64,000 bases of DNA from Pelagibacteraceae bacterium AG-319-F18 (GTDB lineage: Bacteria > Pseudomonadota > Alphaproteobacteria > Pelagibacterales > Pelagibacteraceae). The position numbers and the translations under genes were made by a program. This document shows, in pieces, positions 1,269-15,043 of this stretch. The stretch's first letter is position 1, and each line of letters opens with the position of its first letter. The stretch covers positions 1 to 64,000 of the forward strand of contig QBXA01000005.1 in NCBI GenBank assembly GCA_003283905.1, in the 5' to 3' direction. The notes beneath the pieces were generated by a model. That model was not told the DNA's origin and ran no database searches. It worked only from the letters and a program-made list of their open reading frames with translations.

Positions 1269-2432
1269 TTGAATAAAAAAAATTATTTAGACAACATCAG
1301 CAATTCAAAAAAACCTTTTATAATATATAAAAAAAATAAAGGTTTTGATCTTTTTACTGATTTTTCAAATAAGATAATTTTAAACAATCAAAATATTAGA
1401 AATTTTTTAAAACGAAAGTACGATTTAAAGAAAAAATATAAAAGCACAGATTTGTTAATAGGTTTTTTTGGATATGAATTATTAAATAATTTGATTGGAG
1501 TAAAAATACCTAGGCAAAAAAATATTAATTTTCCAAAAGGAATTTTTTACAAACCTGAAACAAAAATTAATTTGAAAGAAGATTTAATTTATGATTTTAA
1601 ATCTACTCATAAAATAGATAGTAATTTTAAGATAAATATTAACCAAAAGTCATATACGAAAATTTTTGATAAATTTAAAAAAAAAATAAGATCTGGTGAA
1701 ACATATCAAATAAAGATATGTACAAAATATAAAAACAAATCACAAATTGATCCTTTAGATTTTTTTTGTAGACTTACAAAAACCAATTTAGCTCCTGAGT
1801 CATTTATTATTAAAGATAAGAATTATTCTATTATAAGCTGTTCTCCTGAAAATTTAATTAACAAAAAAGGTTCCTCTATATCAACGAAACCAATAGCTGG
1901 TACTTTAAGAAAGACTAAAAAAATCAACAAAAGAAAAGCATTAAATTTTTTTAGAAACAATCTTAAAGAAACAAAAGAGCACAATATGATTGTTGATATG
2001 GAAAGAAATGATCTTTCAAGAATTTGTATTCCTGGCAGTGTAAAGTTAAAAAAAGAAAAATCTGTTGAGGAATATAAAGATCTTTATCACTATGTAAGTT
2101 TAATTTCTGGCAAACTTAGAAAAAAATTGGAAAATATAGATATTATAAAGGCCATGATGCCCGGCGGTTCTGTAATTGGTTGTCCAAAAATAAGTACCCT
2201 CAACCTTTTAAACAATCAGGAAAAAGAAAATAGAAATATATACACAGGCAGCTTTGGTTTTATAAAATTTAATGGCGATATGAGATTTAACATTATTATT
2301 AGATCAATATTAAATTATAAAAATATTTCTGAGATTTCAGTTGCATCGGGTGTTGTAATTGACAGTAATGCAAAACATGAATTTAATGAAAATTTTATCA
2401 AAGCGAAAGCATTAATAGATTTATATAAATGA
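1269..2432 (+). CDS. pabB: Aminodeoxychorismate synthase component I
   Basis: The chorismate-binding enzyme joins chorismate and ammonia to give 4-amino-4-deoxychorismate for folate synthesis. At 387 residues it is shorter than TrpE and fits PabB. Conserved family segments are KPIAGTLRKT, KETKEHNMIVDMERNDLSR and MMPGGSVIGCPK, followed by YTGSFGFIKFNGDMRFN near the end, so the C-terminal catalytic domain looks complete. The start is a TTG 4 bases after the MFS stop. The end overlaps pabA by 4 bases (ATGA), and pabA and pabC follow directly, which favours folate over tryptophan synthesis. It is very lysine- and asparagine-rich, as expected from the base composition. Confidence 0.85.
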   Translation: MNKKNYLDNISNSKKPFIIYKKNKGFDLFTDFSNKIILNNQNIRNFLKRKYDLKKKYKSTDLLIGFFGYELLNNLIGVKIPRQKNINFPKGIFYKPETKINLKEDLIYDFKSTHKIDSNFKININQKSYTKIFDKFKKKIRSGETYQIKICTKYKNKSQIDPLDFFCRLTKTNLAPESFIIKDKNYSIISCSPENLINKKGSSISTKPIAGTLRKTKKINKRKALNFFRNNLKETKEHNMIVDMERNDLSRICIPGSVKLKKEKSVEEYKDLYHYVSLISGKLRKKLENIDIIKAMMPGGSVIGCPKISTLNLLNNQEKENRNIYTGSFGFIKFNGDMRFNIIIRSILNYKNISEISVASGVVIDSNAKHEFNENFIKAKALIDLYK

Positions 2433-2986
2433 TATATGTAATTGATCATAAAGATTCCTTTACACATAATGTTGTTCACCAATTGTCATTATTTGATGAT
2501 GTGGAGTGTGATAATTTTAGTGATATTGATAAATCAAAATTAAATCAAGCATCTACAATTGTTTTTTCTCCAGGACCAGGTTCACCTAAAAACTATCCAT
2601 TAACTTCAAAGATTTATAAACAATTCAAAGGAAAAAAAAGAATATTAGGAGTTTGTCTCGGATTTCAGCAAATATTATTTAGTGAAGGTGCTGAAATAAT
2701 TCAGCAAAACAAAATATACCATGGTTTTCAATCAGAAATATTAGTAAATAAATCAAGTAAATTATTTAATGCAGGAAGTAAATTTAAGGTTGGTCGTTAT
2801 CACTCTTTGAAATTAAAAGAACCTTTCGAGGCAAAAAATTTTGACATAACGATGAGATGTGTTATTTCAGGTGTCGCGATGTCATTTGAAAACAACATTG
2901 ATAAAATTTATGGATTTCAATTTCACCCTGAGTCATTTTTAACATTAAATGGTAAACTACTTATTAAAAAAATCTTATCAGCTTAA
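2429..2986 (+). CDS. pabA: Aminodeoxychorismate/anthranilate synthase glutamine amidotransferase
   Basis: Class I glutamine amidotransferase of 185 residues that supplies ammonia to PabB. The oxyanion segment FSPGPGSPKNYP, the nucleophile elbow GVCLGFQQ (catalytic Cys) and the catalytic FQFHPES (His, Glu) are all visible. The N-terminus YVIDHKDSFTHNVVHQL is typical of TrpG/PabA. It starts inside the pabB stop and its last 38 bases overlap the start of pabC, indicating translational coupling. A dual role with an unlinked trpE cannot be excluded. Confidence 0.85.
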   Translation: MIYVIDHKDSFTHNVVHQLSLFDDVECDNFSDIDKSKLNQASTIVFSPGPGSPKNYPLTSKIYKQFKGKKRILGVCLGFQQILFSEGAEIIQQNKIYHGFQSEILVNKSSKLFNAGSKFKVGRYHSLKLKEPFEAKNFDITMRCVISGVAMSFENNIDKIYGFQFHPESFLTLNGKLLIKKILSA

Positions 2987-3719
2987 AGATCTTAAAGAAA
3001 TTGAATTTAAAGATCTTTGGGGAGATCATGGTGTATTCACAACAATGTGGATATTTGACAATCCATCAAAAATTCTCTTTTTTAATGAACATATTAATAA
3101 TCTAATTAAATCTTCTAAAGTTTACTCGATATTTAAAAAATCATTGAAATCAGATATTTTAAATTTATTAAAAGATAATTTAAAATCAAATACAAAGTAT
3201 AATCACTTATTAAGAATTGCTGTTAATAAAAAAATTCTATCAATTTCATTAAGAAAACGTATCAAACCTAAATCAAATTTCGATTTAAAATTAGTAAATT
3301 TAAAAAGACAAAAACCTGAATTTAAAAATTTAAAATATAGAGAAATATTGAGATATTTAACAAAATTTGATAATTCAAAAGTAGACATTGGGTTATGCTC
3401 AAACAATAAAATTTTAGAAACCGGTACTTCTAATTTGTTTTTTATAAAAGACAATAAAGTTTTTTCACCAAAAAATAAATTTTATAAAGGTATCACTTAT
3501 AAATTTTTTAAATCAAAAATAAAAAAAATTATTAAAAAAGATATTCTTGTTAATTCTTTAAAAGAGTTTGATGAAATTATTTTAATTGGGTCCGGGAAAG
3601 GAGTTACATCAGTAAAAACTATCAACCAGATAAAATGGAAAAGAAAAAGTTTAAAATTTTACAATATTTTTTTAAAACATTATAAAACTGCTGTTAACAA
3701 GTGCCAAAGATATAAGTAA
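2949..3719 (+). CDS. pabC: Aminodeoxychorismate lyase (class IV PLP aminotransferase fold)
   Basis: A 256-residue class IV PLP enzyme that most likely releases pyruvate from aminodeoxychorismate to give p-aminobenzoate. Supporting segments are DHGVFTTMW near residue 26, KYREILRYLTKFD (candidate PLP lysine region), and ILETGTSNLFFIKDNKVFSP, which matches the family's cofactor-binding ET(G)TSN signature. The pabB-pabA-pabC order strongly suggests PabC rather than branched-chain or D-amino acid aminotransferase. The assigned ATG overlaps pabA by 38 bases. The next in-frame start lies well inside the domain, so the overlap is probably real. Confidence 0.75.
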   Translation: MVNYLLKKSYQLKDLKEIEFKDLWGDHGVFTTMWIFDNPSKILFFNEHINNLIKSSKVYSIFKKSLKSDILNLLKDNLKSNTKYNHLLRIAVNKKILSISLRKRIKPKSNFDLKLVNLKRQKPEFKNLKYREILRYLTKFDNSKVDIGLCSNNKILETGTSNLFFIKDNKVFSPKNKFYKGITYKFFKSKIKKIIKKDILVNSLKEFDEIILIGSGKGVTSVKTINQIKWKRKSLKFYNIFLKHYKTAVNKCQRYK

Positions 3720-3724
3720 ATATT

Positions 3725-4123
3725 ATGAGAGATCCCAATAATCCATGTTTATTTTGTAATTCAAAAATTAGTGGTATAGTTCATGAAAACGAGTTGGCTT
3801 ATGCAAGTTATGATACGTATCCTGTATCTGAACACCACTGCCTAATAATTCCAAAAAGACATGTAATGGATTACTTTGAATTATCTAATGAGGAATTAAT
3901 TGCGTGTAATGATTTGATTAAGATTGTCAAACAAGAAGTTATAGAAAAAGATAAAAGTATAAAAGCATTTAATGTTGGAACTAACGCCGGAAAAGCAGCA
4001 GGACAATCAATTATGCATTGTCACATTCATTTGATTCCAAGAAGAGAAGGTGATGTTGATAATCCTCAAGGAGGTGTAAGATCAGTAATAGCTAAAAAAC
4101 AGCATTATAAACGTAAAATATAA
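3725..4123 (+). CDS. HIT family nucleotide-binding hydrolase
   Basis: A 132-residue histidine-triad protein. The N-terminal pair CLFCNSK resembles the metal-binding end of Hint-type proteins. The triad HCHIHLIPRR lies near residue 98, preceded by the usual NVGTNAGKAAGQS segment. These proteins hydrolyse phosphoramidate or other nucleotide conjugates; the natural substrate here is unknown. It is 5 bases after pabC and probably in the same transcript. Confidence 0.85.
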   Translation: MRDPNNPCLFCNSKISGIVHENELAYASYDTYPVSEHHCLIIPKRHVMDYFELSNEELIACNDLIKIVKQEVIEKDKSIKAFNVGTNAGKAAGQSIMHCHIHLIPRREGDVDNPQGGVRSVIAKKQHYKRKI

Positions 4124-4234: not shown

Positions 4235-5035
4235 ATGCTAGGAACAAATCCATTCTCTATTTTAGCAGAAACTGTATCTCCAATATACATGCAGTCCTTT
4301 GTTGTTTTAATGGTACTATTAATAGTTGTTGGAACTCTTTTAGACATTATTCACAAAAAAAATGTTAAATATTTTTTTGAGAATGCAAAAAAAGCAAAAC
4401 TATCCGCAACAAAAACTTTAAATACTACTGAAAAAATAACTGTTATTTCAAAAACTATTGTTAGTGATATAGCAACAACCTCTGAATTAGGAGCAGGAAA
4501 AAGAAGAGCAGCTCATTTATTAGGAATGTACGGTACAATTTTATTCTGGATTGGATCTGCAATAATGATTTTTTGCTACTCGAATTCATCTTCAGACACC
4601 CCATCTTTTTGGCCTTTCATTTGGCATGTTGGTGCTATAATGACAGTTATTGGAGGAGGTTGGTTTTGGTTTTTTTTAAGAGTAGATGTTTATTCAGAAG
4701 CACAACCTTGGTATAGAATTATTAAAGCAGATTTATTTGTACTTGCGCTTGTTGCTTCTTCTTTAACTGGTTTAATTTGGTCTTATTTACAATCTTTAAA
4801 TTTAAATAATAGATGGGATGATAAAGTTTTTTTAGTTTTATTTATTGTATCAAATCTAATTCTATTTGGAGGAGTATATTGGTCAAAATTTGCACACATG
4901 TTTTATAAACAGGGAGCTGCAATACAAAAAAATTTAGCTGAAGCTGATGGATCTAGAGATAATTTACCTCCAGAAGCAGAAGCACCTAAACAGTTTGGAT
5001 TAGGTATGAAAAGAGAAGAACCAAAACACTATTAA
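4235..5035 (+). CDS. aprM: Membrane anchor subunit of APS reductase
   Basis: A 266-residue inner membrane protein with about five hydrophobic helices (around residues 20-40, 96-117, 128-150, 164-185 and 197-216) and a soluble, acidic C-terminal tail. Its place directly before aprB and aprA matches the aprM-aprB-aprA arrangement known from SAR11 and some sulfur oxidisers, where AprM is thought to tie the soluble AprBA to the quinone pool. The assignment rests mostly on context. A strong AAGGG ribosome-binding site precedes the ATG. Confidence 0.75.
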   Translation: MLGTNPFSILAETVSPIYMQSFVVLMVLLIVVGTLLDIIHKKNVKYFFENAKKAKLSATKTLNTTEKITVISKTIVSDIATTSELGAGKRRAAHLLGMYGTILFWIGSAIMIFCYSNSSSDTPSFWPFIWHVGAIMTVIGGGWFWFFLRVDVYSEAQPWYRIIKADLFVLALVASSLTGLIWSYLQSLNLNNRWDDKVFLVLFIVSNLILFGGVYWSKFAHMFYKQGAAIQKNLAEADGSRDNLPPEAEAPKQFGLGMKREEPKHY

Positions 5036-5061
5036 TATGATAAAAGGAAATAAATAAAATT

Positions 5062-5532
5062 ATGTCAACATTTGTATATATGACTAGATGTGATGGTTGT
5101 GGTCATTGCGTAGATATTTGTCCATCAGATATAATGCATATTGATGAAAATATTAGACGTGCAAAAAATATAGAACCAAATTTTTGTTGGGAATGTTATT
5201 CTTGTGTTAAAGCATGTCCAAATCATGCTATTGATGTTAGGGGATATGCAGACTTTGCTCCAATGGGACATAGTGTGAGAGTGAGACGCGAAGAAGAAAA
5301 AGGAACTATTTCGTGGAAAATTAAGTTCAGAAATGGAACTACTAAAGATTTTGTTTCACCAATTACAACTAAACCTTGGGGTAAATTTATTCCAAAACTT
5401 GCTGAAGGAGATAAACCTAATCAAGATGAAATAAATTCTCAAAGACTTTATTTAGAACCTGAGGGTTTAAACACTGAAAAAGAATTACCAACTGTTCCTA
5501 AAGATTCATTTAAAAAAGGAGTTTATTATTAA
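5062..5532 (+). CDS. aprB: Adenylylsulfate (APS) reductase beta subunit
   Basis: Iron-sulfur subunit of 156 residues that passes electrons between the FAD of AprA and the membrane. Two complete 4Fe-4S ligand sets are visible: Cys10, 13, 16, 20 (CDGCGHCVDICP) and Cys42, 45, 48, 52 (CWECYSCVKACP). The remaining roughly 90 residues form the AprB tail that in known structures wraps around AprA. The stop overlaps the aprA start by one base. In a SAR11-like cell without sulfate respiration the reaction probably runs from sulfite and AMP to APS. Confidence 0.93.
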   Translation: MSTFVYMTRCDGCGHCVDICPSDIMHIDENIRRAKNIEPNFCWECYSCVKACPNHAIDVRGYADFAPMGHSVRVRREEEKGTISWKIKFRNGTTKDFVSPITTKPWGKFIPKLAEGDKPNQDEINSQRLYLEPEGLNTEKELPTVPKDSFKKGVYY

Positions 5533-7391
5533 TGGCTAAACATAAAACACATTACGAAGATTGCGATATTCTAGTTGTTGGTGGTGGTATGGCTGGAACT
5601 GGAGCTACTTTTGAAGCTAGGCACTGGGGTAGAGACATGAAAATTATTTGTGTTGAAAAAGCTAATATTGATAGAAGTGGAGCTGTTGCTCAAGGTCTTT
5701 ATGCAATCAACTGCTACATGGGAATGCAATGGGATGAAAACCAACCTGAAGACCATGTAAGATATGCAAGAAATGACTTAATGGGAATGGTTAGAGAAGA
5801 TTTAGGTTACGACATGGCTCGTCACGTAGATTCATCTGTTCATATGTTTGATGAATGGGGTCTTCCGATGATGAAAAATGAAGAAACTGGCAGATACCTT
5901 AGAGAAGGTAAATGGCAAATCATGATACATGGTGAAAGCTATAAGCCAATTGTTGCAGAAGCAGCAAAAAAATCAGCAGACAAAATTTATAACAGAATTA
6001 TGATTACCCATCTATTAATGGATGAGTCCCAAGAAAACAGAGTAGGTGGTGCTGTTGGATTTAATATGAGAACAGGAGATTTTCATGTATTCAGAGCTAA
6101 AACAGTAATAGTTGCTGCTGGAGGAGCATCTCACATATTTAAACCAAGAGCTGTTGGTGAAGGAATGGGAAGAACTTGGTATGCACCTTGGAGTAATGGT
6201 TCAGCTTATGCTTTACCGATTGCAGCTGGAGCAAAAATGACACAAATGGAAAATAGAATTGTGTTATGTAGATTTAAAGATGGATATGGACCAGTTGGAG
6301 CATATTTTCTTCATTTAAAAACTTATACTCAAAACGCTAACGGCGAAAATTATGAGAAAAAATGGTACGACCAAACAAAAGAGCTAGTTGGTGAATATAT
6401 TGATCACCATCCAACCCCAACTTGTTTGAGAAACCATGCTTTTATTCAAGAAACTATGGCTGGAGGTGGACCAATTCACATGGTTACAACTGAGGCTTTT
6501 CAAGACCCACATTTAGAAACTGTTGGTTGGGAAAATTTCTTAGGAATGACAGTTGGACAAGCAGTTGTTTGGGCATCTCAAAATATCGATCCAAAATATA
6601 CAAATCCAGAATTAACAACATCTGAGCCATACGTAATGGGGTCACATGCTACTTGTTCAGGAGCTTGGGTAAGTGGTCCAGAAGATTTATCTCCACCAGA
6701 GTATTTCTGGGGATACAATAGAATGCTTACGATTGATGGATTGTTTGGAGCAGGTGATACAGTAGGTGGAAGTGCTCATAAATTTTCTTCAGGTTCATTC
6801 ACTGAAGGTAGATTAGCCGCTAAAGCTGCAGTTAAATACATTGAAGATAAAAAAGCTGAAGGTTTGAAAGTATCAGACAAGCAATGTGAAGATTTTAAAA
6901 CTAAAGTCTATAAACCTCTTGAAACATATACAGTTGCTCAAAATGAAATTACTGGTGGAACAGTATCTCCAAGCTATATTTCACCAATTCAAGGTCTTCA
7001 AAGACTCCAAAGAATTATGGATGAGTATGTAGGTGGAATTGCAACTAATTACATGACTAATGCTAATATGCTTAAAAGAGGTTTAGAGCTATTAGCCTGG
7101 TTAGAGGAAGATCTTGAAAATGTTGGAGCTGAAGATTATCACCAGCTAATGAGAGCTTGGGAGCTAAAACATAGAGCACTTACGTCACAGTGTGTAACAG
7201 AACACACGATGTTTAGGGAAGAGACTAGGTGGCCAGGATATTATTATAGAGGAGATCATATGAAATTAGACGATGATAACTGGCATTGTCTTACTGTTTC
7301 TAGAAGAGATCCTAAGACTGGCAAATTTAGTATGGAAAAAGTTCCCGTCTACCATATAGTGGATGAGAATGAGAAGAAAAAAGCTTCATAA
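5532..7391 (+). CDS. aprA: Adenylylsulfate (APS) reductase alpha subunit
   Basis: A 619-residue FAD enzyme interconverting APS and sulfite plus AMP. The dinucleotide-binding segment ILVVGGGMAGTGATFEA lies near residues 13-30, the active-site region GSHATCSGAWVSGPEDL near 370-386, and the FAD-binding GAGDTVGGSAHKFSSGSF near 406-423. The length is normal for the family and no key region is missing. Xsc and SuyAB encoded nearby both release sulfite, so AprBA is well placed to oxidise cytoplasmic sulfite. The partner that turns APS into sulfate (ATP sulfurylase or an APS:phosphate adenylyltransferase) is not in this window. Confidence 0.95.
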   Translation: MAKHKTHYEDCDILVVGGGMAGTGATFEARHWGRDMKIICVEKANIDRSGAVAQGLYAINCYMGMQWDENQPEDHVRYARNDLMGMVREDLGYDMARHVDSSVHMFDEWGLPMMKNEETGRYLREGKWQIMIHGESYKPIVAEAAKKSADKIYNRIMITHLLMDESQENRVGGAVGFNMRTGDFHVFRAKTVIVAAGGASHIFKPRAVGEGMGRTWYAPWSNGSAYALPIAAGAKMTQMENRIVLCRFKDGYGPVGAYFLHLKTYTQNANGENYEKKWYDQTKELVGEYIDHHPTPTCLRNHAFIQETMAGGGPIHMVTTEAFQDPHLETVGWENFLGMTVGQAVVWASQNIDPKYTNPELTTSEPYVMGSHATCSGAWVSGPEDLSPPEYFWGYNRMLTIDGLFGAGDTVGGSAHKFSSGSFTEGRLAAKAAVKYIEDKKAEGLKVSDKQCEDFKTKVYKPLETYTVAQNEITGGTVSPSYISPIQGLQRLQRIMDEYVGGIATNYMTNANMLKRGLELLAWLEEDLENVGAEDYHQLMRAWELKHRALTSQCVTEHTMFREETRWPGYYYRGDHMKLDDDNWHCLTVSRRDPKTGKFSMEKVPVYHIVDENEKKKAS

Positions 7392-7412
7392 TTAAATCTT
7401 TAAGTTAGTAAA

Positions 7413-7763
7413 ATGGATATTTTATCAAAAAATGATGATGAGATATATGAATTGGCCAAACCTATTTGGGACAATTTGGTAAAATCATCTAATCTCAAAG
7501 ACTATGGTGGTTTTACTAAAGATTTTTCAACGCAAATGTTATTTGGTGCAAACGAAGTCGAGCTTGGTAAACAATGGGCTAATAATAAGATTATCACAAA
7601 CTTAAAAGAAACATTTGAGCCATTTGGATGCCTTAGAAGAGGTGTTCATGTAACAGTTTTGATAAAACAAACTAATAAAGAAATTTCAGGAGAATTTCTT
7701 GGTCGTCTAGTTCTAGGTGAGGAAGATGGAGCAGTTAAAGTCTTTGGTGCTACTATTTACTAG
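7413..7763 (+). CDS. Conserved-looking protein of unknown function in the apr operon
   Basis: A 116-residue soluble protein that I do not recognise. It starts 21 bases after aprA on the same strand, so it is probably co-transcribed. It has no signal peptide or membrane helix. An amphipathic helical start (DEIYELAKPIWDNL) is followed by a strand-rich half ending in VHVTVLIKQ, EFLGRLVLGEEDG and VKVFGATIY. That order loosely recalls small NTF2/SnoaL-type folds, which is a guess. It has a single cysteine (FGCLRRG). Location suggests a role in sulfite or APS metabolism or in assembly of AprBA. Confidence 0.6.
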   Translation: MDILSKNDDEIYELAKPIWDNLVKSSNLKDYGGFTKDFSTQMLFGANEVELGKQWANNKIITNLKETFEPFGCLRRGVHVTVLIKQTNKEISGEFLGRLVLGEEDGAVKVFGATIY

Positions 7764-7832
7764 AAAATAAAAATTGATCTAAAATCAAATATTTATTTGA
7801 CAAATAGCTTTACAGGTGTATTCACGGTTGTA

Positions 7833-7967
7833 ATGCAACTTTCCAACGTAAAAATCATTGATAAAATATTAAGCTCTAAAATTGTTATTATTAAAACAGG
7901 TATATTTTTAAGTCTTGCTACTTACTGGAGTGTTATTTTAGTTGGAACTTTTATTACTTTTAATTAA
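7833..7967 (+). CDS. Small membrane protein candidate, 44 aa
   Basis: An ORF of 44 codons opens with ATG in the 233-base gap between the apr operon and the TauE-like gene. The N-terminal half is basic (MQLSNVKIIDKILSSK). The second half is one long hydrophobic stretch, IVIIKTGIFLSLATYWSVIL and onward, compatible with a single membrane helix, positive end inside. It starts 70 bases after the 116-aa gene and ends 29 bases before the TauE gene on the same strand. No homologue is known to me. The rest of the gap shows nothing else clear. Confidence 0.45.
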   Translation: MQLSNVKIIDKILSSKIVIIKTGIFLSLATYWSVILVGTFITFN

Positions 7968-7996
7968 GTTATTTTTTAATAACATTTAAAATCTTT

Positions 7997-9076
7997 ATGG
8001 AAGTATTTTTACCAATCGCTCAAGTTTTTGTTAATCCAATTGAAATATTAATGCTTAGTGCAATAGTTGGAATTCTTTCAGGATTATTTGGTGTGGGCGG
8101 TGGATTTTTAATGACTCCATTTTTAATTTTTTTAGGTGTTCCTCCAGCTTATGCAGTTGCAAATGAAGCTAACAATATTCTTGCAACATCAGTATCTGGA
8201 TCAACAACACATTATTTAAAAAATACCTTAGATTATAAATTAGGTATGATGATTGTAATCGGTGGTACTGTTGGTACAGCACTTGGTATTTATACTTTTA
8301 CTTATTTTAAAGGGATTGGAAAAATAGATACAGTTATTTCTTTAGCGTACATGTATATTTTGGCAATTATCGGAACTTTGATGTTGGTAGAAAGTCTTGG
8401 TGAGATTGATAAAGCAAAAAGAAACCTTTTAGTCAAAAAAAAATTACATGTTCATTATTGGATACATGGTCTTCCTTTAAGGATGAGATTTCCAAAATCA
8501 AAATTATACGAAAGTATATTTACTCCAATTATAATAGGTTTACTTGTAGGATTCATAGCTGCTATCATGGGTATAGGAGGAGCTTTTATTTTAGTACCCG
8601 CTATGATTTATATTATTAAAATGCCAACTAAATTAGTTCCAGGCACTTCACTCTTTGTAACTATTTTTGTAAGCGTGATAGTTACTTTTCTTCACTCTTT
8701 TAATTATGGGTCTATAGATTTATTACTTGTGTTTATGTTGGTTGTTGGATCAATTGTAGGGGTTCAAATTGGTCAAAAACTTGGTGAAAAAATTGATAGC
8801 TCAGGACTAAAAGTATTACTTGCAATTTTATTATTGATTGTCGGCATAGCTATTGCTTACGACACTTTTTTTGCAGAACAAGTTTCGAACGATATAGTTA
8901 AAGTTTCAAATAAAGATCTTAACTTCTTTTCATTATTTATTTTAGAATTTTCTAACGATATGCCATTCTTTTATGGATTATTTTCAATTATGTTTGCAAT
9001 TTTTCTAGGGGTTGGTGCTGCTTTTATCAGACGATTTTTTTCAAATTTAAGAAAAAAAATAATGTTAAAATCTTAA
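7997..9076 (+). CDS. Sulfite exporter TauE/SafE family membrane protein
   Basis: A 359-residue polytopic protein with two internally similar halves: GILSGLFGVGGGFLMTPFLI near residue 25 and GFIAAIMGIGGAFILVPAMI near 185. The paired G-G-G-F-x-x-x-P motif is the hallmark of the TauE/SafE (formerly DUF81) family. Members export sulfite, sulfoacetate or other organosulfur anions. Lying between aprA and suyAB/xsc, it most likely relieves sulfite stress by export, though import of an organosulfur anion is possible. A hydrophilic loop near residues 130-165 and an extra C-terminal helix pair make it longer than minimal members. Confidence 0.88.
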   Translation: MEVFLPIAQVFVNPIEILMLSAIVGILSGLFGVGGGFLMTPFLIFLGVPPAYAVANEANNILATSVSGSTTHYLKNTLDYKLGMMIVIGGTVGTALGIYTFTYFKGIGKIDTVISLAYMYILAIIGTLMLVESLGEIDKAKRNLLVKKKLHVHYWIHGLPLRMRFPKSKLYESIFTPIIIGLLVGFIAAIMGIGGAFILVPAMIYIIKMPTKLVPGTSLFVTIFVSVIVTFLHSFNYGSIDLLLVFMLVVGSIVGVQIGQKLGEKIDSSGLKVLLAILLLIVGIAIAYDTFFAEQVSNDIVKVSNKDLNFFSLFILEFSNDMPFFYGLFSIMFAIFLGVGAAFIRRFFSNLRKKIMLKS

Positions 9077-9084
9077 ATTTACTA

Positions 9085-9104
9085 AATACTTTTTTTAAAG
9101 TATT
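9085..9104. terminator. Possible bidirectional terminator between convergent genes
   Basis: An 8-base inverted repeat, AATACTTT (9085-9092) and AAAGTATT (9097-9104), with a TTTT loop lies in the 55-base gap between the plus-strand TauE-like gene and the minus-strand suyB. The stem is AT-rich and no long T tract follows outside it, so strength is uncertain. The place is right for ending both transcripts. Confidence 0.4.
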
Positions 9105-9131
9105 GAAAATTAATAGGCACTCAATTAGATC

Positions 9132-10298
9132 TTATGCACTTCTGTATAGTTTAGTCATCACAAATTCTTTGTGACCTAAAGCTTCTGCACAAGTTAATCT
9201 TCCGTTAGCTACCCTTAAAGTTGTTTTAATTAATTCATCTCCAGCTTCAGATAAATTCATTTCTCTAGAAAGAATTTTAGAAACATCTAAATCAATATGT
9301 TCTTTCATATTAGCAGCTGTACTTGGGTTACCTGTTAATTTAACTACAGGTTCAATTGCATTACCAATAATATTTCCCTGTCCAGTTGGAAACAAATGAA
9401 TGTTAAATCCTGCAGCAGCTTGTAAAGTTAAACATTCTCCAGCGGCAGAGGATGTGTCCATAAAGTATAGACCTGGACCCTTTTTGGGTTCCTCAGCTGG
9501 TGTTAATACATCAATAAATTTTCTTGATCCAATTTTTTGAAAATTACCAAAAGCTTTTTCCTCAATTGTTGTAAGACCACCTGCAATATTACCTGCTGTC
9601 GGTTGACTTTCTGAAAGATCATCAGTCGCTTCTTTAAGAATAAAATCATTATAATCACTCCAAGTTTTCATAAATTTTTTAGATGCTTCAGGAGTTGCCC
9701 CTCTTGTAGCGCAAACTTTTTCAGCTCCTGTAAGTTCTGATGTTTCACCAAAGCATAGGTGAACTCCTAATGGCTCTAATTTATCCATTAAATTTCCAAC
9801 TGCAGGGTTAGCTGCCATACCAGAAGTAGTATCTGATTCACCACATTTTACTGAAATCCATAAATCACTTAGAGGACATTCTTCTCTTTGTTTTTCAGAT
9901 GCCCACTGTGAAAATTCTTGTGCTTTTTGTGAAGCCTTCATTGTAGTTTTAATATCACCAGACCCTTCAATACTAAAACCTTCTACAGGTTTTCCTGTAG
10001 TTGCTATAGCATCAACAATTCTTTTAGTCCATTTTGGCTCTATACCAATAACAATTACTGCAGCAACATTTGGATTTTTACCTGTTCCAATCATAGTGTC
10101 AAAAAATAATTCTAAATCTGCACCAAACTGAAGTCTTCCATAAGCATGAGGTATTGCAAAAGTACCTTTAATATTATTTGCAACAGCTTCAGCGCATGCA
10201 TTTGAAATGTCGTCAACTGGAAGAATGATTACGTGATTTCTAGTACCCGCTCTACCATTTTCTCTTTTATAACCTAAAAAACTTTTTGGAATTTCCAT
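9132..10298 (-). CDS. suyB: (2R)-sulfolactate sulfo-lyase, large (beta) subunit
   Basis: An altronate dehydratase-like (UxaA C-terminal) protein of about 388 residues, which with SuyA splits 3-sulfolactate into pyruvate and sulfite. The segment [20 protein letters not shown] at the N-terminus is typical of the UxaA/GarD/SuyB family, as are [19 protein letters not shown] mid-protein and [19 protein letters not shown] near the C-terminus. I place the start at the ATG at 10298 (MEIPKSF), five bases after the suyA stop, rather than at an upstream ATG inside suyA. The split small/large subunits and the neighbouring xsc and apr genes favour sulfolactate over altronate or galactarate. Confidence 0.8.
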
Positions 10299-10302
10299 AT
10301 TA

Positions 10303-10587
10303 CTACCACTTCTTTGTTTTAACATTGTGAACATGTACGTGTTCACCTTTTTTAATTGATTTAACCACTTTTCCTATGTCATGACCATATTTAAGGATTG
10401 TGTCACCCTCGTTTAGATCAATCATAGCAATTTTATGCCCTAAAGGAATTTCATCTAAAGATTGAATCTTTGTAGAACTATCATCTTCCATTATCCAGCA
10501 AGCACAGTCTTGTTTTGGAGTGATTTTTTCAATAACAACTACTCCTACGTTATCTTTTTTATCATGAATTATAATATCTGTAGCCAT
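10303..10587 (-). CDS. suyA: (2R)-sulfolactate sulfo-lyase, small (alpha) subunit
   Basis: A 94-residue SAF-domain protein matching the small subunit of the split sulfolactate lyase. The central [20 protein letters not shown] and final [13 protein letters not shown] (His-rich end) are characteristic of the UxaA N-terminal/SAF domain. The start is placed at [11 protein letters not shown] (10587) because the upstream extension is unlike the family. It is divergent from xsc, with 117 bases between the two start codons, allowing shared regulation. Confidence 0.8.
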
Positions 10588-10704
10588 ATTTATTGTGTCG
10601 ATTTGTTTGTTTGAAATTTGTAAAATCTTATATATTAATCGCAAAAATTAACAAACGAATTTTAAAATAGTTTTAAATTTATACTTTAGAGAGGTTTCAG
10701 TTTT

Positions 10705-12489
10705 ATGACAAAAATGACAACAGAAGAGGCTTTTGTAAAAGTTTTACAAATGCACGGTATTGAACACGCATTCGGAATTATTGGTTCAGCCTTTATGCCA
10801 ATTTCAGATATTTTTCCTGATGCAGGAATAACTTTCTGGGATGTTGCTCATGAAACTAATGGTGGATTAATTGCTGACGGTTATACAAGAGCTACCGGAA
10901 AAATGTCAATGGTAGTTGCACAAAATGGTCCAGGAATTACAGGTTTGGTAACACCAATTAAAACCGCATACTGGAATCATACTCCGCTTTTATTAGTAAC
11001 TCCTCAAGCTGCAAATAAAACTATGGGACAAGGCGGTTTTCAAGAAGTTGAACAAATGAATTTATTTAAAGATATGGTTTGCTACCAGGAAGAAGTTAGA
11101 GATCCTTCAAGAATGGCAGAAGTATTAAATAGAGTTATTGAAAAAGCAATAAGAGGATCAGCCCCAGCACAAATAAATGTACCAAGAGATTATTGGACAC
11201 AAGTTATTGATATTGACCTTCCTCCTATTGTAAGACTAGAAAAGCAAGCAGGTGGAGTTGATGCAATTAAAAAAGCAGCTGACTTATTATCTAACGCAAA
11301 GTTTCCAGTTATATTATCTGGTGCTGGAGTTGTGATCGGTGACGCTATTGAAAATTGTAAAAAACTTGCTGAAAAATTAGATGCACCAGTTTGTTCTGGT
11401 TATCAACATAATGATAGTTTTCCTGGAAGTCATCCTTTGGCAGCTGGTCCTTTAGGTTATAATGGTTCAAAAGCTGGGATGGAATTAATTAAACAAGCTG
11501 ATGTAGTTTTAGCATTAGGAACAAGATTAAATCCTTTCTCAACATTGCCAGGATATGGAATGGATTACTGGCCAAAAGAAGCAAGTATCATTCAAGTTGA
11601 TATGAATTCAGATCGTATTGGTCTAACAAAAAAAGTTACTGTTGGTATTTGTGGCGATGCTAAATTAGTTGCTCAACAATTACTTGCTCAACTTTCACCA
11701 ACAGCAGGTGATACTGATAGACAAAAAAGAAAAGATATTATTCATCAAACTAAATCTGCTTGGTTACAAAAATTATCAAGTTTAGATCATGAAGATGATG
11801 ACGAAGGTACAGTTTGGAATAAAGAAGCAAGAGAAAGAGATTCTGATAGAATGTCACCAAGACAAGCTTGGAGAGCCATTCAATCAGGAATGCCTGAGGA
11901 AGCAATTATTTCTAGTGATATTGGAAATAATTGTGCAATTGGAAATGCTTATCCTACATTTGAAAAAGGAAGAAAATATTTAGCACCAGGATTGTTTGGT
12001 CCATGCGGATATGGTTTTCCTTCAATCTTAGGAGCTAAAATTGGTTGTCCAGATACTCCAGTAATTGGTTTTGCTGGTGATGGTGCTTTTGGTATCAGTA
12101 TGAACGAGATGAGCTCTTGCGCTAGAGAAGAATGGCCTTCAATTGCAATGGTTATCTTTAGAAATTATCAATGGGGAGCTGAAAAAAGAAATTCTATTCT
12201 TTGGTTTGATGATAATTTTGTTGGCACTGAATTAGATCCAGAATTAAGTTATGCAAAAGTAGCTGATGCATGTGGTCTTAAAGGTGTAACTGTTAGAACA
12301 ATGGAAGAAACCACTAATGCTATAAAACAATCTTGTGAAGATCAAAAGAAAGGAATTACAACATTTATTGAAGTAATTCTTAACCAAGAACTTGGTGAAC
12401 CATTTAGAAGAGATGCTATGAAAAAACCAGTTAAAGTAGCTGGTATCAATAAAGCAGATATGAAGAAGCAACCTTCTTTAAATTCTTAA
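10705..12489 (+). CDS. xsc: Sulfoacetaldehyde acetyltransferase
   Basis: A thiamine-diphosphate enzyme of 594 residues that converts sulfoacetaldehyde and phosphate to acetyl phosphate and sulfite. The N-terminal Pyr domain holds the catalytic glutamate in VAHETNGGLIADGYTRATG (Glu about residue 50), and GFAGDGAFGISMNEM near residue 455 opens the ThDP/Mg motif. Overall pattern and length fit Xsc better than acetolactate synthase. Sulfoacetaldehyde could come from taurine, isethionate or sulfoacetate; acetyl phosphate would then enter central metabolism. A GAGAGG ribosome-binding site precedes the ATG. Confidence 0.9.
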   Translation: MTKMTTEEAFVKVLQMHGIEHAFGIIGSAFMPISDIFPDAGITFWDVAHETNGGLIADGYTRATGKMSMVVAQNGPGITGLVTPIKTAYWNHTPLLLVTPQAANKTMGQGGFQEVEQMNLFKDMVCYQEEVRDPSRMAEVLNRVIEKAIRGSAPAQINVPRDYWTQVIDIDLPPIVRLEKQAGGVDAIKKAADLLSNAKFPVILSGAGVVIGDAIENCKKLAEKLDAPVCSGYQHNDSFPGSHPLAAGPLGYNGSKAGMELIKQADVVLALGTRLNPFSTLPGYGMDYWPKEASIIQVDMNSDRIGLTKKVTVGICGDAKLVAQQLLAQLSPTAGDTDRQKRKDIIHQTKSAWLQKLSSLDHEDDDEGTVWNKEARERDSDRMSPRQAWRAIQSGMPEEAIISSDIGNNCAIGNAYPTFEKGRKYLAPGLFGPCGYGFPSILGAKIGCPDTPVIGFAGDGAFGISMNEMSSCAREEWPSIAMVIFRNYQWGAEKRNSILWFDDNFVGTELDPELSYAKVADACGLKGVTVRTMEETTNAIKQSCEDQKKGITTFIEVILNQELGEPFRRDAMKKPVKVAGINKADMKKQPSLNS

Positions 12490-12520: not shown

Positions 12521-12539
12521 GTCACTTCATGGAAGTGAT
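12521..12539 (+). promoter_or_regulatory. Hairpin holding the start codon of the FAD oxidoreductase gene in its loop
   Basis: The inverted repeat TCACTTC (12522-12528) and GAAGTGA (12532-12538) is perfect, and its three-base loop is exactly the ATG start at 12529-12531. One G-T pair extends it on each side (12521/12539). The purine-rich AAGG ribosome-binding site (12517-12520) is immediately upstream. In mRNA this stem would hide the start codon, so it could limit translation. Chance is possible and no ligand or factor is implied. Confidence 0.4.
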
Positions 12540-13833
12540 TAATGATAATGGGTGTAGTTGGATTAAAGATTTAACTCCTCGTACAAATGTTAAAACTCTT
12601 AAGTCTAACGAAGATTGTGACTGGCTAATAATTGGGGCGGGTTATACAGGTTTATCTGCAACAAGAAAATTAGATCAATTATATCCAAATCAAAAAATTA
12701 TATTAGTAGATGCTCAGTTAGCAGGTGAGGGGGCAAGTAGCAGAAATTCAGGTTATCTAGTTGATACCACTCTAAATGATGGATTCACTTCAAATAAAGA
12801 ATTAGAAAATTATAAAAAAAAAGCTGATATTTATGATTTGGGGATAAAAATTGTAAAAAAATTTATTAATGAACATCAGGTAGATTGCGATTGGAACGAA
12901 TGTGGAAAATTTTTTGCATCCTCAAAACCAGAAGATGAAAAGATTTTAGTAAATTTTTCCAATACACTCTCTCAATTAGGTTTTGAACATAATTTATTGA
13001 AAAGAGAAGATTTATCAAAAAGACTAGGAACTAATTTTTATAATATTGCTCTTCATACAAGAGGAGGAATTTTATTACATCCTGGTAAACTTGTTAGATC
13101 AATGATTGACGTGTTACCTAGTAACGTGTGTTTATATGAAAATTCATGTTTAATAAATTGGAATAAGAACAAAGATTTTATTTCATGTAATTTTAAAAAT
13201 GGAAAAATAAATGCTAAGAAAATTATCTTTGCTACGAATGGTTTTTTTAAATCTTTAGGGATTAAATCTAACTATAATTTTCCAATTACTTTAACTGCAA
13301 GCATGACAAGATCATTAACTGATGAAGAATTTAAATCTATTGGTGAGCCAAAAGAATGGGGTGTATTACCAGTAAGACCGATGGGAGCAACAATTAGAAT
13401 GACTAAAGATAGAAGAATTTTGATTAGAAATACTGCTGAAGTTTACAATCCATTTAAAATGTCTAAGTCAAATTTAGAAAAAAGATCGATAAATCAAAGA
13501 ATTGGAATAAAAAAAAGATTTCCACAATTACCAAATGATATTATTCAATCAACATGGTCAGGAATTGTATCAAGAACAAGAAATAGCTCTCAAATATTTG
13601 AAAAAATTGATACCAATATTTTTGCTGCAGGTTGTTATAATGGCTCAGGTATAGGTGTTGGAATCTTATTTGGAGAACAAATTGCTCTAAAAGCAAATAA
13701 TGAAAATACAAAAGAAATAGAAACTATTGAAGCTAGAAATAAACCAACTTTGTTACCACCAGAACCGTTTTTGAATTTAGGTGTTAAAATGAGATTATTT
13801 TATGAAAGGATTAGAGCACGATCAGAAATTTAA
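12529..13833 (+). CDS. DadA-like FAD-dependent oxidoreductase
   Basis: A 434-residue DAO-superfamily flavoprotein. The ADP-binding motif WLIIGAGYTGLSATRKL lies near residue 33 and is followed by GEGASSRNSGYLVD, the usual flavin-contact segment. The C-terminal GCYNGSGIGVGILFGEQIA contacts FAD. Such enzymes oxidise amines or amino acids, often passing electrons to the respiratory chain. It starts 39 bases after xsc on the same strand, so a role in making sulfoacetaldehyde from taurine (as in the FAD subunit of taurine dehydrogenase) is attractive but unproven; D-amino acid or N-methylated amino acid oxidation are alternatives. Confidence 0.75.
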   Translation: MEVINDNGCSWIKDLTPRTNVKTLKSNEDCDWLIIGAGYTGLSATRKLDQLYPNQKIILVDAQLAGEGASSRNSGYLVDTTLNDGFTSNKELENYKKKADIYDLGIKIVKKFINEHQVDCDWNECGKFFASSKPEDEKILVNFSNTLSQLGFEHNLLKREDLSKRLGTNFYNIALHTRGGILLHPGKLVRSMIDVLPSNVCLYENSCLINWNKNKDFISCNFKNGKINAKKIIFATNGFFKSLGIKSNYNFPITLTASMTRSLTDEEFKSIGEPKEWGVLPVRPMGATIRMTKDRRILIRNTAEVYNPFKMSKSNLEKRSINQRIGIKKRFPQLPNDIIQSTWSGIVSRTRNSSQIFEKIDTNIFAAGCYNGSGIGVGILFGEQIALKANNENTKEIETIEARNKPTLLPPEPFLNLGVKMRLFYERIRARSEI

Positions 13834-13891
13834 AAAATTTACTTATTAGACTTGTTCAATAAACTTTATTAGATAAAATAATAGATAAAAT

Positions 13892-15043
13892 TTAAAGAAC
13901 TACTAAGTCCAACTTTTGTTTACCTAAACGTTCATTACCATTCTCAGTAACTAAATAAGTTTCACCCAAATTCATCGCTAAATTGCTATCTGAGTCCATG
14001 AGTATCATATGCATAAAGAAGACATTACCTGGCTGTATGATGTAGGGATTGCCCGTGTAAAGCATTGGCCAATCCATCCAATTAGGAGAAAAAGTTGAAC
14101 CCAAAGAATAGCCACAGGCATTCATTCTTGCTTTATTAAAACCTAAATTATCAAAAGTTTTTGCGTGAACATCAAATACTTCTCCAGCTGTTTTTCCAGG
14201 AACTAAAGTTTCTACACAATTTGTTAATGCTTCAATACATGCTTCATGCATTTGAGAATGTTTAAGATCAGCTTTTCCAATAGGGATAGTTCTAAACATT
14301 GCAGAGTGATAGTGTTTGAAAGTACCAGCCCATTCTAAACTTAGTTGATCTGTATTTGATAAGTTTCTTTTTTCAGCTTGGTATCTACAGAGTAGGGCAT
14401 TATCTCCAGAGCCAATGATATATTCATTAGCAGGATAATCGCCACCACCTTCAAGAACAGCTTTTTGCATTTCTGCTAAAATTTTTGCTTCGCTTACACC
14501 TGCTTTTGTGTATTTCCAAGCTTGATCTAGCGCTTTATCAGCTAATTCAGCAGCTTTTCTAACGTATACTAATTCTTCGTTAGATTTTATTACTCTTAAT
14601 TTTGTAATCAATTCTGATTGATCTTCAGCTTTACAGTAATTTTCTAAAGATTTGTTTAATCTTAAAGCGTTACGTCCTGTCATTCCGTAAGCTTCATATT
14701 CAATCCCAATATTTTTATTTATTAAATCAAGTTCATTTAAAATTTTTTTAAGATCATCTGTTGGATTTATTCCATCTTTATCAACCCAAATTCTTATATC
14801 TTTAATATTAGAAGTATTCTGAGCTTGTCTTAAATCAGGCGCACGAGTTAACAAAATAATATTTCCATTTTTATCTAGTATTAGAGTCTGAAAAAAAACA
14901 TAACCAAATGTATCGTAACCAGTCAGCCAATACATTGATTCTTGTCTAAACATTAAAAGAGCATCTAAGTTTTGTTCTTTCATAGATTTTAAAACATCTT
15001 GTTTTCTTTTAGATAATTCTTCTTTACTAAAATGAAGTGCCAT
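13892..15043 (-). CDS. M24-family C-N hydrolase of the ectoine hydrolase/creatinase type (metal ligands absent)
   Basis: A 383-residue pita-bread fold protein with an N-terminal creatinase domain (MYWLTGYDTFGYVF near residue 38) and a C-terminal M24 domain. Usual metal ligands are replaced: the segment normally carrying two aspartates reads LEWAGTFKHYHSAMFRT, the usual histidine region reads CGYSLGSTFSPNW, and only the final glutamate (LGETYLVTENG) is kept. This resembles creatinase and ectoine hydrolase (DoeA), which work without the metal pair, rather than Xaa-Pro aminopeptidase or the DMSP lyase DddP. Substrate is unknown; a small amidine, ureido or ectoine-like solute is likely. It is last in the GMC-TerC-SDR-M23 operon. 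Confidence 0.7.
   Translation of the reverse strand: MALHFSKEELSKRKQDVLKSMKEQNLDALLMFRQESMYWLTGYDTFGYVFFQTLILDKNGNIILLTRAPDLRQAQNTSNIKDIRIWVDKDGINPTDDLKKILNELDLINKNIGIEYEAYGMTGRNALRLNKSLENYCKAEDQSELITKLRVIKSNEELVYVRKAAELADKALDQAWKYTKAGVSEAKILAEMQKAVLEGGGDYPANEYIIGSGDNALLCRYQAEKRNLSNTDQLSLEWAGTFKHYHSAMFRTIPIGKADLKHSQMHEACIEALTNCVETLVPGKTAGEVFDVHAKTFDNLGFNKARMNACGYSLGSTFSPNWMDWPMLYTGNPYIIQPGNVFFMHMILMDSDSNLAMNLGETYLVTENGNERLGKQKLDLVVL

Follow-up and report, generated by a model that had tools for sequence, protein, structure and literature searches.

An organosulfonate and sulfite gene module conserved in SAR11 bacteria, with a linked HIT-family protein as a candidate for the APS-to-sulfate step

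The window analysed here, a stretch of 64,000 nucleotides, comes from contig C5 of the SAR11 genome Pelagibacteraceae bacterium AG-319-F18 (1.13 Mb, 42 contigs, 79.6% complete), and carries near its left end a compact set of genes predicted to release sulfite from organosulfonates and to dispose of it. An earlier note had described the interval 4235-12489 as apparently one functional unit, and the genes that it named were all found in place. On the forward strand lie aprM (4235..5035), for a QmoC-like membrane anchor of adenosine 5'-phosphosulfate (APS) reductase, aprB (5062..5532) and aprA (5532..7391), for the beta and alpha subunits of the reductase, ORF116 (7413..7763), an open reading frame (ORF) of 116 residues directly after aprA with an NTF2-like fold in its predicted model, and a gene for a TauE/SafE-family carrier (7997..9076) that may export sulfite or sulfonate. 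These are followed on the reverse strand by suyB (9132..10298) and suyA (10303..10587), assigned to the large and small subunits of (2R)-sulfolactate sulfo-lyase, and again on the forward strand by xsc (10705..12489), for sulfoacetaldehyde acetyltransferase. Just left of the interval, at 3725..4123 on the forward strand, is a gene for a 132-residue HIT-family protein with the motif HCHIHLIPRR, a candidate APS hydrolase or phosphorylase. The earlier note had also counted two unknown ORFs; ORF116 is one, while no other ORF of at least 60 residues that lacks both a known function and an overlap lies in the interval, and a 56-residue ORF with a TTG start at 7797-7967 may have been meant.

Both subunits of the APS reductase reach equivalog level, AprA scoring 989 bits against TIGR02061 (cut-off 642) and AprB 185.5 bits against TIGR02060 (cut-off 135.7), and residues 7-611 of AprA align with the solved AprA of Archaeoglobus fulgidus (2fja, E-value 2.5e-197). 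AprM has a weak QmoC match (E-value 1.5e-6, 28 bits, cut-off 300) and no Pfam match at an E-value of 0.001, and is named from this match together with its position. In lineage I of the Apr proteins of sulfur-oxidizing bacteria, aprM is described as placed before aprBA (PMC2211403, in the part seen), as it is in the window, and an aprM homologue precedes aprB in all 35 loci from relatives that are described below. The carrier matches PF01925 with 153.8 bits (cut-off 32.6) and the HIT protein PF01230 with 70 bits (cut-off 21.5), the three histidines of its HxHxH motif (H118, H120, H122) being invariant across 10 aligned HIT sequences.

SuyAB and Xsc are enzymes that release sulfite, and both are members of superfamilies that also hold altronate/galactarate dehydratases and acetolactate synthases, which favors the alternative that the window encodes these latter enzymes and no sulfonate unit. 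The family scores argue otherwise. Xsc lies above both Xsc cut-offs (961 bits against TIGR03457, cut-off 676; 1035 bits against PRK07525) and below that of the acetolactate synthase model (about 298 bits, cut-off 538), while SuyB falls far short of the galactarate dehydratase model TIGR03248 (158 bits, cut-off 731). None of the family models searched names SuyB or SuyA; SuyB matches PF20629 and PF04295, SuyA adjoins it and matches the N-terminal part of TIGR03248, and their probable identity is drawn from gene context. The top-ranked plasmid relative of SuyB, a Paracoccus aestuarii protein (locus L175, 67.5% identity), is encoded in a cluster with the order suyA-suyB-tripartite transporter-hydroxyacid dehydrogenase-Ldh-putative sulfate exporter, and in two sister genomes that lack apr (G023 and G048) suyB orthologues 78-79% identical to that of the window stand in the order suyA-suyB-2-hydroxyacid dehydrogenase (PF02826)-Ldh_2 (PF02615), flanked in G048 by TctC and TctA transporter genes as well. 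The Paracoccus locus and the SAR11 loci L179 and L181 thus share with the window a suyA-suyB pair with orthologous large subunits, but have it beside two dehydrogenases (and a transporter in L175 and L181), whereas in the window it stands beside apr and xsc. The window genome also encodes a distinct 501-residue protein, which carries SAF and GD_AH domains and shares 28-29% identity with SuyB. Given this protein and the sulfolactate clusters of the relatives, the mistaken identity against which the earlier note had warned is not what was found; the alternative is rejected as hardly credible, and the assignments of SuyAB to sulfolactate and of Xsc to sulfoacetaldehyde stand. The start codon of suyB is probably the ATG at 10298 rather than 10346, because many relatives carry a stop codon within the match to the longer version, and that of suyA probably the ATG at 10587 rather than 10644. 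An Ldh_2 protein encoded on contig C29 of the window genome could be a maker or a user of sulfolactate.

The association of these genes was followed through 147 genomes of the family, many of them incomplete, in counts that ignore kinship. With presence of aprA defined as a match with an E-value below 1e-90 (weaker matches share about 25% identity across some 200 residues), the gene occurs in 68 of the 147. Among these apr-positive genomes 64 have suyB and 62 have xsc, against three each among the 79 apr-negative ones; in two of the three apr-negative genomes with xsc (G119 and G143) the contig starts near the hub, and apr may for this reason be absent from the assembly only. The genes also stand together more often than chance would allow: in 35 aprA loci from relatives, taken as stretches of up to 20 kb, some of which stop at a contig edge, the stretch includes aprM in 35, ORF116 in 34, suyB in 32, xsc in 31 and a TauE homologue in 29, and in two loci (L055 and L071) suyB and xsc lie farther away in the genome. 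Co-occurrence and linkage together bear out the claim of one functional unit, and the apr-suyAB-xsc cluster is, with good confidence, a conserved SAR11 module for the use of organosulfonates as sources of carbon and energy with disposal of the sulfite. This confidence applies to the module and the handling of sulfite and does not carry over to the HIT step discussed below. The HIT gene at 3725-4123, which had been left outside, is also tied to apr, and the unit may extend to include it.

ORF116 accompanies AprBA almost throughout SAR11, being present in 66 of the 68 apr-positive and in none of the 79 apr-negative genomes; a homologue with 42% identity also follows aprA in one other alphaproteobacterium (L074). 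Sequence searches of Pfam, NCBIfam and the PDB returned nothing for it. Its structure was predicted with AlphaFold2 from 13 aligned sequences (the window and 12 of the 88 homologues found), giving a model of three helices and four strands with a mean predicted local distance difference test score (pLDDT) of 84.8. Foldseek returned no match to the model at an E-value of 0.001 or better, while VIA-align placed 25 of 1000 chains at Z of at least 8; the 50 matches shown have Z of 7.6-9.2, many of them NTF2-like, at which level (Z of about 8) a match can mean a shared arrangement only. The model looks NTF2-like but points to no particular relative, and a role as partner of AprBA or as assembly helper is a guess.

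The HIT gene, with a homologue defined by an E-value below 1e-30, is found in 40 of the 68 apr-positive and in none of the 79 apr-negative genomes, and in 27 of 34 against none of 19 among the 53 genomes with a completeness of 90% or more and a contamination of 5% or less (as taken from rounded values). Of the 40 carriers, 39 have it no more than 4 kb from aprA. A scan of a genome collection with the HIT sequence gave the same picture within SAR11: of 560 confirmed stretches the best 80 were retained, and all 55 SAR11 HIT loci among them have an apr gene in the same stretch. In genome G063 (L176, 4452-5444) a 330-residue ORF with a HIT domain lies at a distance of two genes from one for a C-5 cytosine DNA methylase (PF00145).

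Within SAR11 the HIT gene occurs in two places. Counting the window, 78 hub loci carry HIT: in 61 the gene precedes aprM and shares its strand, and in 17 it lies downstream and is read from the other strand. Some loci repeat one another, which leaves 59 and 13 distinct ones, respectively. The upstream type begins a median of 3 bases after pabC (58 loci; 5 bases in the window) and ends 79-114 bases before aprM (60 loci), while in all 17 loci of the downstream type the gene and the end of suyB share 1-8 bases. When near-identical sequences are counted once (72 of the 78 loci), pairs of upstream-type HIT proteins average 65-70% identity at an ORF116 identity of 65-75%, and pairs of the downstream type 65-68% at an ORF116 identity of 70-80%, whereas pairs between the types average 50-51%, the ranges barely touching at 58%. 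The lower identity between types makes two HIT lineages likely, as opposed to one relocated gene. A HIT tree (near-identical sequences once, 66 of 107) agrees, with clades of 33 and 12 sequences and supports of 92/86 and 100/100, but does not reject a single clade of all 45 SAR11 sequences (approximately unbiased test, p 0.31); the SAR11 HIT genes look like two lineages, for which the identity comparison is stronger evidence than the tree. When HIT presence and place are mapped onto a quick tree of AprA from 36 loci, the state changes at least seven times. In locus L066 a gene of the homocysteine S-methyltransferase family (PF02574, 8524-9830) directly follows HIT in a suyA-suyB-HIT row.

Outside SAR11, a search of the class for aprA (385 genomes) gave 23 genomes with a match, 20 of them non-SAR11, and 20 apr loci were taken from 19 of these (two from G147, a fragment in G339 being left out). 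One of the 20 (L075, JAJFIL010000125.1, isolate OFTM99), from an alphaproteobacterium whose AprA is about 50% identical to that of the window, has the row aprB-aprA-YkgJ-like-HIT-xsc. The tie between HIT and apr is thus a trait of SAR11, with a single clear parallel elsewhere.

For the use made of these genes, the following mechanism is proposed. SuyAB would split sulfolactate and Xsc sulfoacetaldehyde, both freeing sulfite in the cytoplasm; AprBA, to judge from its family, would couple sulfite with adenosine monophosphate (AMP) to form APS and hand a pair of electrons to the quinone pool by way of AprM; and the linked HIT protein would hydrolyze or phosphorolyze APS into sulfate and AMP or adenosine diphosphate, so that AMP would be recycled as sulfur carrier, with surplus sulfite or sulfonate bled off through the TauE carrier. 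A sulfite-to-APS direction of AprBA has been suggested for sulfur oxidizers (PMC2211403, in the part seen). The earlier note had found no enzyme for the release of sulfate from APS in the window, and the window genome (G000, 79.6% complete) likewise gave no ATP sulfurylase (Sat) gene in a search with PF01747, which did not extend to the cysDN-type sulfurylase. ATP sulfurylase was found in five of the 147 genomes, three apr-positive and two apr-negative. As no Sat was found, APS must leave by another route. The HIT proteins Fhit, Hint4 and DcpS are reported to hydrolyze or phosphorolyze APS, and like the hub protein they belong to the HIT superfamily and carry HxHxH, but all three are eukaryotic (PMC7072326, in the part seen). 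Since HIT proteins are known that cleave APS, the hub HIT protein is a candidate for the APS-to-sulfate step, and by analogy such cleavage is chemically plausible. APAT of Thiobacillus denitrificans is an APS-cleaving enzyme of the GalT branch of the HIT superfamily; we know of no APS assay for the subfamily of the hub protein. The identification of the linked HIT protein as the missing enzyme is tentative, and the reading in which AprBA and the hub HIT protein, in two unlike forms and probably recruited more than once, close sulfite oxidation in SAR11 without ATP sulfurylase, with AMP as catalytic carrier and the electrons going to respiration, is given a probability of roughly 0.28.

A number of observations weigh against this reading, several of which favor the alternative that the HIT protein is a general dinucleotide or phosphoramidate hydrolase, a neighbor of apr by chance or through pab, and that APS is cleaved by the ordinary Hint paralogue or other housekeeping enzymes. 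HIT is missing from 28 of the 68 apr-positive genomes, for which no common replacement was identified (in one of them, G097, aprA is truncated, apparently at a contig end). The sole HIT copy of one genome (G010, 8% contamination) lies on another contig than apr, and two apr-positive SAR11 genomes hold a second, unlinked copy. Because the upstream-type gene abuts pabC, it may belong to the pab operon; HIT was found in 18 of 20 loci that have pab (by eye). Some HIT match, mostly weak, occurs in 125 of the 147 genomes, and one plasmid relative is annotated as a diadenosine polyphosphate hydrolase. Beyond SAR11, apr occurs in one of the other 24 named HIT loci among the best 80 of 560, some of which are on short contigs, the one being L112, with apr 2.3 kb away and a tetratricopeptide repeat (TPR)-like gene (by eye) between; the HIT subfamily is thus common and not in general tied to apr. 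In the outside parallel L075, an ATP sulfurylase is also present (read from the sequence), and HIT is therefore no simple substitute for Sat there. Against the alternative stand the absence of HIT from all 79 apr-negative genomes, the downstream-type gene, which in every case overlaps suyB instead of following pabC, and the identity of about 50% between types against 65-70% within a type at like ORF116 divergence, which hardly suits one relocated gene. On balance the general-hydrolase explanation is given about even odds.

A further route for APS would lead through 3'-phosphoadenosine 5'-phosphosulfate, formed by APS kinase and then used or cleaved by CysQ, with no dedicated APS hydrolase. It draws support from HTCC1062, for which cysC and cysQ are listed (PMC5069961, in the part seen). 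In the window genome, by contrast, the APS-kinase-like protein, encoded beside a nucleotidyltransferase, is partial (134 residues, 88 of 152 model positions, 42 bits), and proteins of the same kind occur in apr-negative genomes too; kinase domains over all or most of the model are found in 26 of the 147 genomes and in 13 of the 68 apr-positive ones. APS kinase was accordingly rejected as the APS sink of the window genome, and the route is considered improbable. In some genera a P-loop protein resembling APS kinase and a nucleotidyltransferase of the HxGH type (by a motif read by eye) lie upstream of aprM (L058 2216-2992, L066 3041-3828), in L046 (4263-4643) the nucleotidyltransferase lies there alone, and in one relative the two are fused. 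This pair is not favored as an APS enzyme, because in the window genome it lies away from apr (L184 5260-6062) and kinase-like matches occur in apr-negative genomes.

The end product was also approached through the carriers. If sulfite were mainly exported by TauE, AprBA could be a slow detoxifier or act without net formation of sulfate. The TauE homologue inside the unit in most relative loci and the PF01747 search, which gave no Sat in the window genome, agree with this, as does the literature: as far as the part seen of PMC10356861 goes, proof that cultured SAR11 excrete sulfate when using taurine is lacking, a point that counts against the HIT-based route as well. Sulfate as the end product is suited by a second carrier, of the putative sulfate exporter family PF03601. 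Its gene adjoins suyB in all 13 apr-positive genomes that have one (L039 9344-10441 and 12 more) and, judged by eye on ORF length, lies between TauE and suyB in 10 of the 35 relative loci; in the apr-negative sister G023, which has suyAB and xsc, it directly follows a gene for a 410-residue molybdopterin protein of the sulfite oxidase family (PF00174, PF03404; L180 7511-9930), perhaps a different sulfite oxidizer filling an equivalent role. Strong purifying selection on aprAB, reported in the part seen of PMC12636525, likewise speaks against export as the main fate. Neither carrier is general, since six of the 35 loci have no TauE homologue and PF03601 is absent from 55 of the 68 apr-positive genomes, including that of the window, which is again unfavorable to sulfate formation through HIT. 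Taken together, export as the main fate of sulfite appears rather unlikely, though of some weight. Sulfite oxidases were also rejected as an explanation: the window genome holds only a shorter PF00174 member of 303 residues, and the type of about 400 residues is not linked to apr (12 of the 68 apr-positive and 16 of the 79 apr-negative genomes), nor is it significantly commoner in apr-positive genomes without HIT than in those with it (7 of 28 against 5 of 40, p 0.21).

Several neighboring genes complete the locus. Directly to the left of HIT lie pabB-pabA-pabC (1269..3719, forward strand; named by eye from translations), neighbors outside the sulfur pathway. Between a major facilitator superfamily gene and aprM, several relatives have in place of pabBAC a gene for a TENA/PQQC-family protein of about 223 residues (L046 3569-4240, PF03070; L066 3924-4607 and L058 3046-3771, by eye), possibly a CADD-type 4-aminobenzoate synthase, which would make this a swap of folate-precursor enzymes. 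To the right, 39 bases after xsc, a gene for a DAO-family flavin adenine dinucleotide (FAD) oxidoreductase (12529..13833, forward strand; PF01266, 118 bits) is of uncertain membership in the unit; a homologue lies after xsc in nine of the 35 relative loci, directly after it in seven (the seven by eye). The 12 plasmid relatives listed for it, with 31-35% identity, are annotated as generic FAD oxidoreductases or carry no annotation; a sulfonate amine, for instance taurine, may be what it acts on. In L050 xsc is followed by a gene for a 611-residue carbamoyltransferase-family protein (12939-14774; PF02543, PF16861), and ORFs of 611 residues recur after xsc in several other relatives. An Rfam scan of the window returned only tRNAs at gathering scores, and scans for promoters (44 sites against 46.5 in shuffled sequence) and terminators (5 against 4.0) were uninformative.

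The gene set and the idea of sulfite removal are already published (PMC12636525, PMC5069961, PMC10356861; each seen in part). In PMC12636525, aprAB count among the core genes of Pelagibacteraceae, suyAB and xsc are listed as core or near-core, and Apr is hypothesized to remove sulfite from organosulfur breakdown. Genes, organism family and proposal are the same as here, but, as far as the passage goes, a shared locus, ORF116 and the HIT gene are not described. PMC5069961 gives sat and cys genes as missing, with apr transcripts lower under sulfur limitation, and PMC10356861 has most SAR11 without ATP sulfurylase although they use AprAB. 'Ca. Taurinisymbion ianthellae' of the same source resembles the window in that sulfite released by Xsc is oxidized via AprAB, but has ATP sulfurylase and QmoAB, whereas the window genome has AprM, no Sat that was found, and SuyAB in addition. 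New here are the HIT gene and ORF116 as parts of the apr unit; neither was found named beside SAR11 apr in the parts seen of the open-licence literature on SAR11 apr and sulfonates and on HIT and APS.

For the biology of SAR11, the linked HIT candidate turns the missing APS-to-sulfate step into a simple biochemical test, and ORF116 may be relevant to the workings of AprM-type APS reductases. Much of the plankton of the ocean consists of SAR11 bacteria, and sulfonates are among the main compounds of its dissolved organic sulfur. If the HIT-based closure of sulfite oxidation is true, AMP would be a catalytic sulfur carrier, and electrons from sulfite would supply the respiration of cells that rank among the most numerous on Earth.

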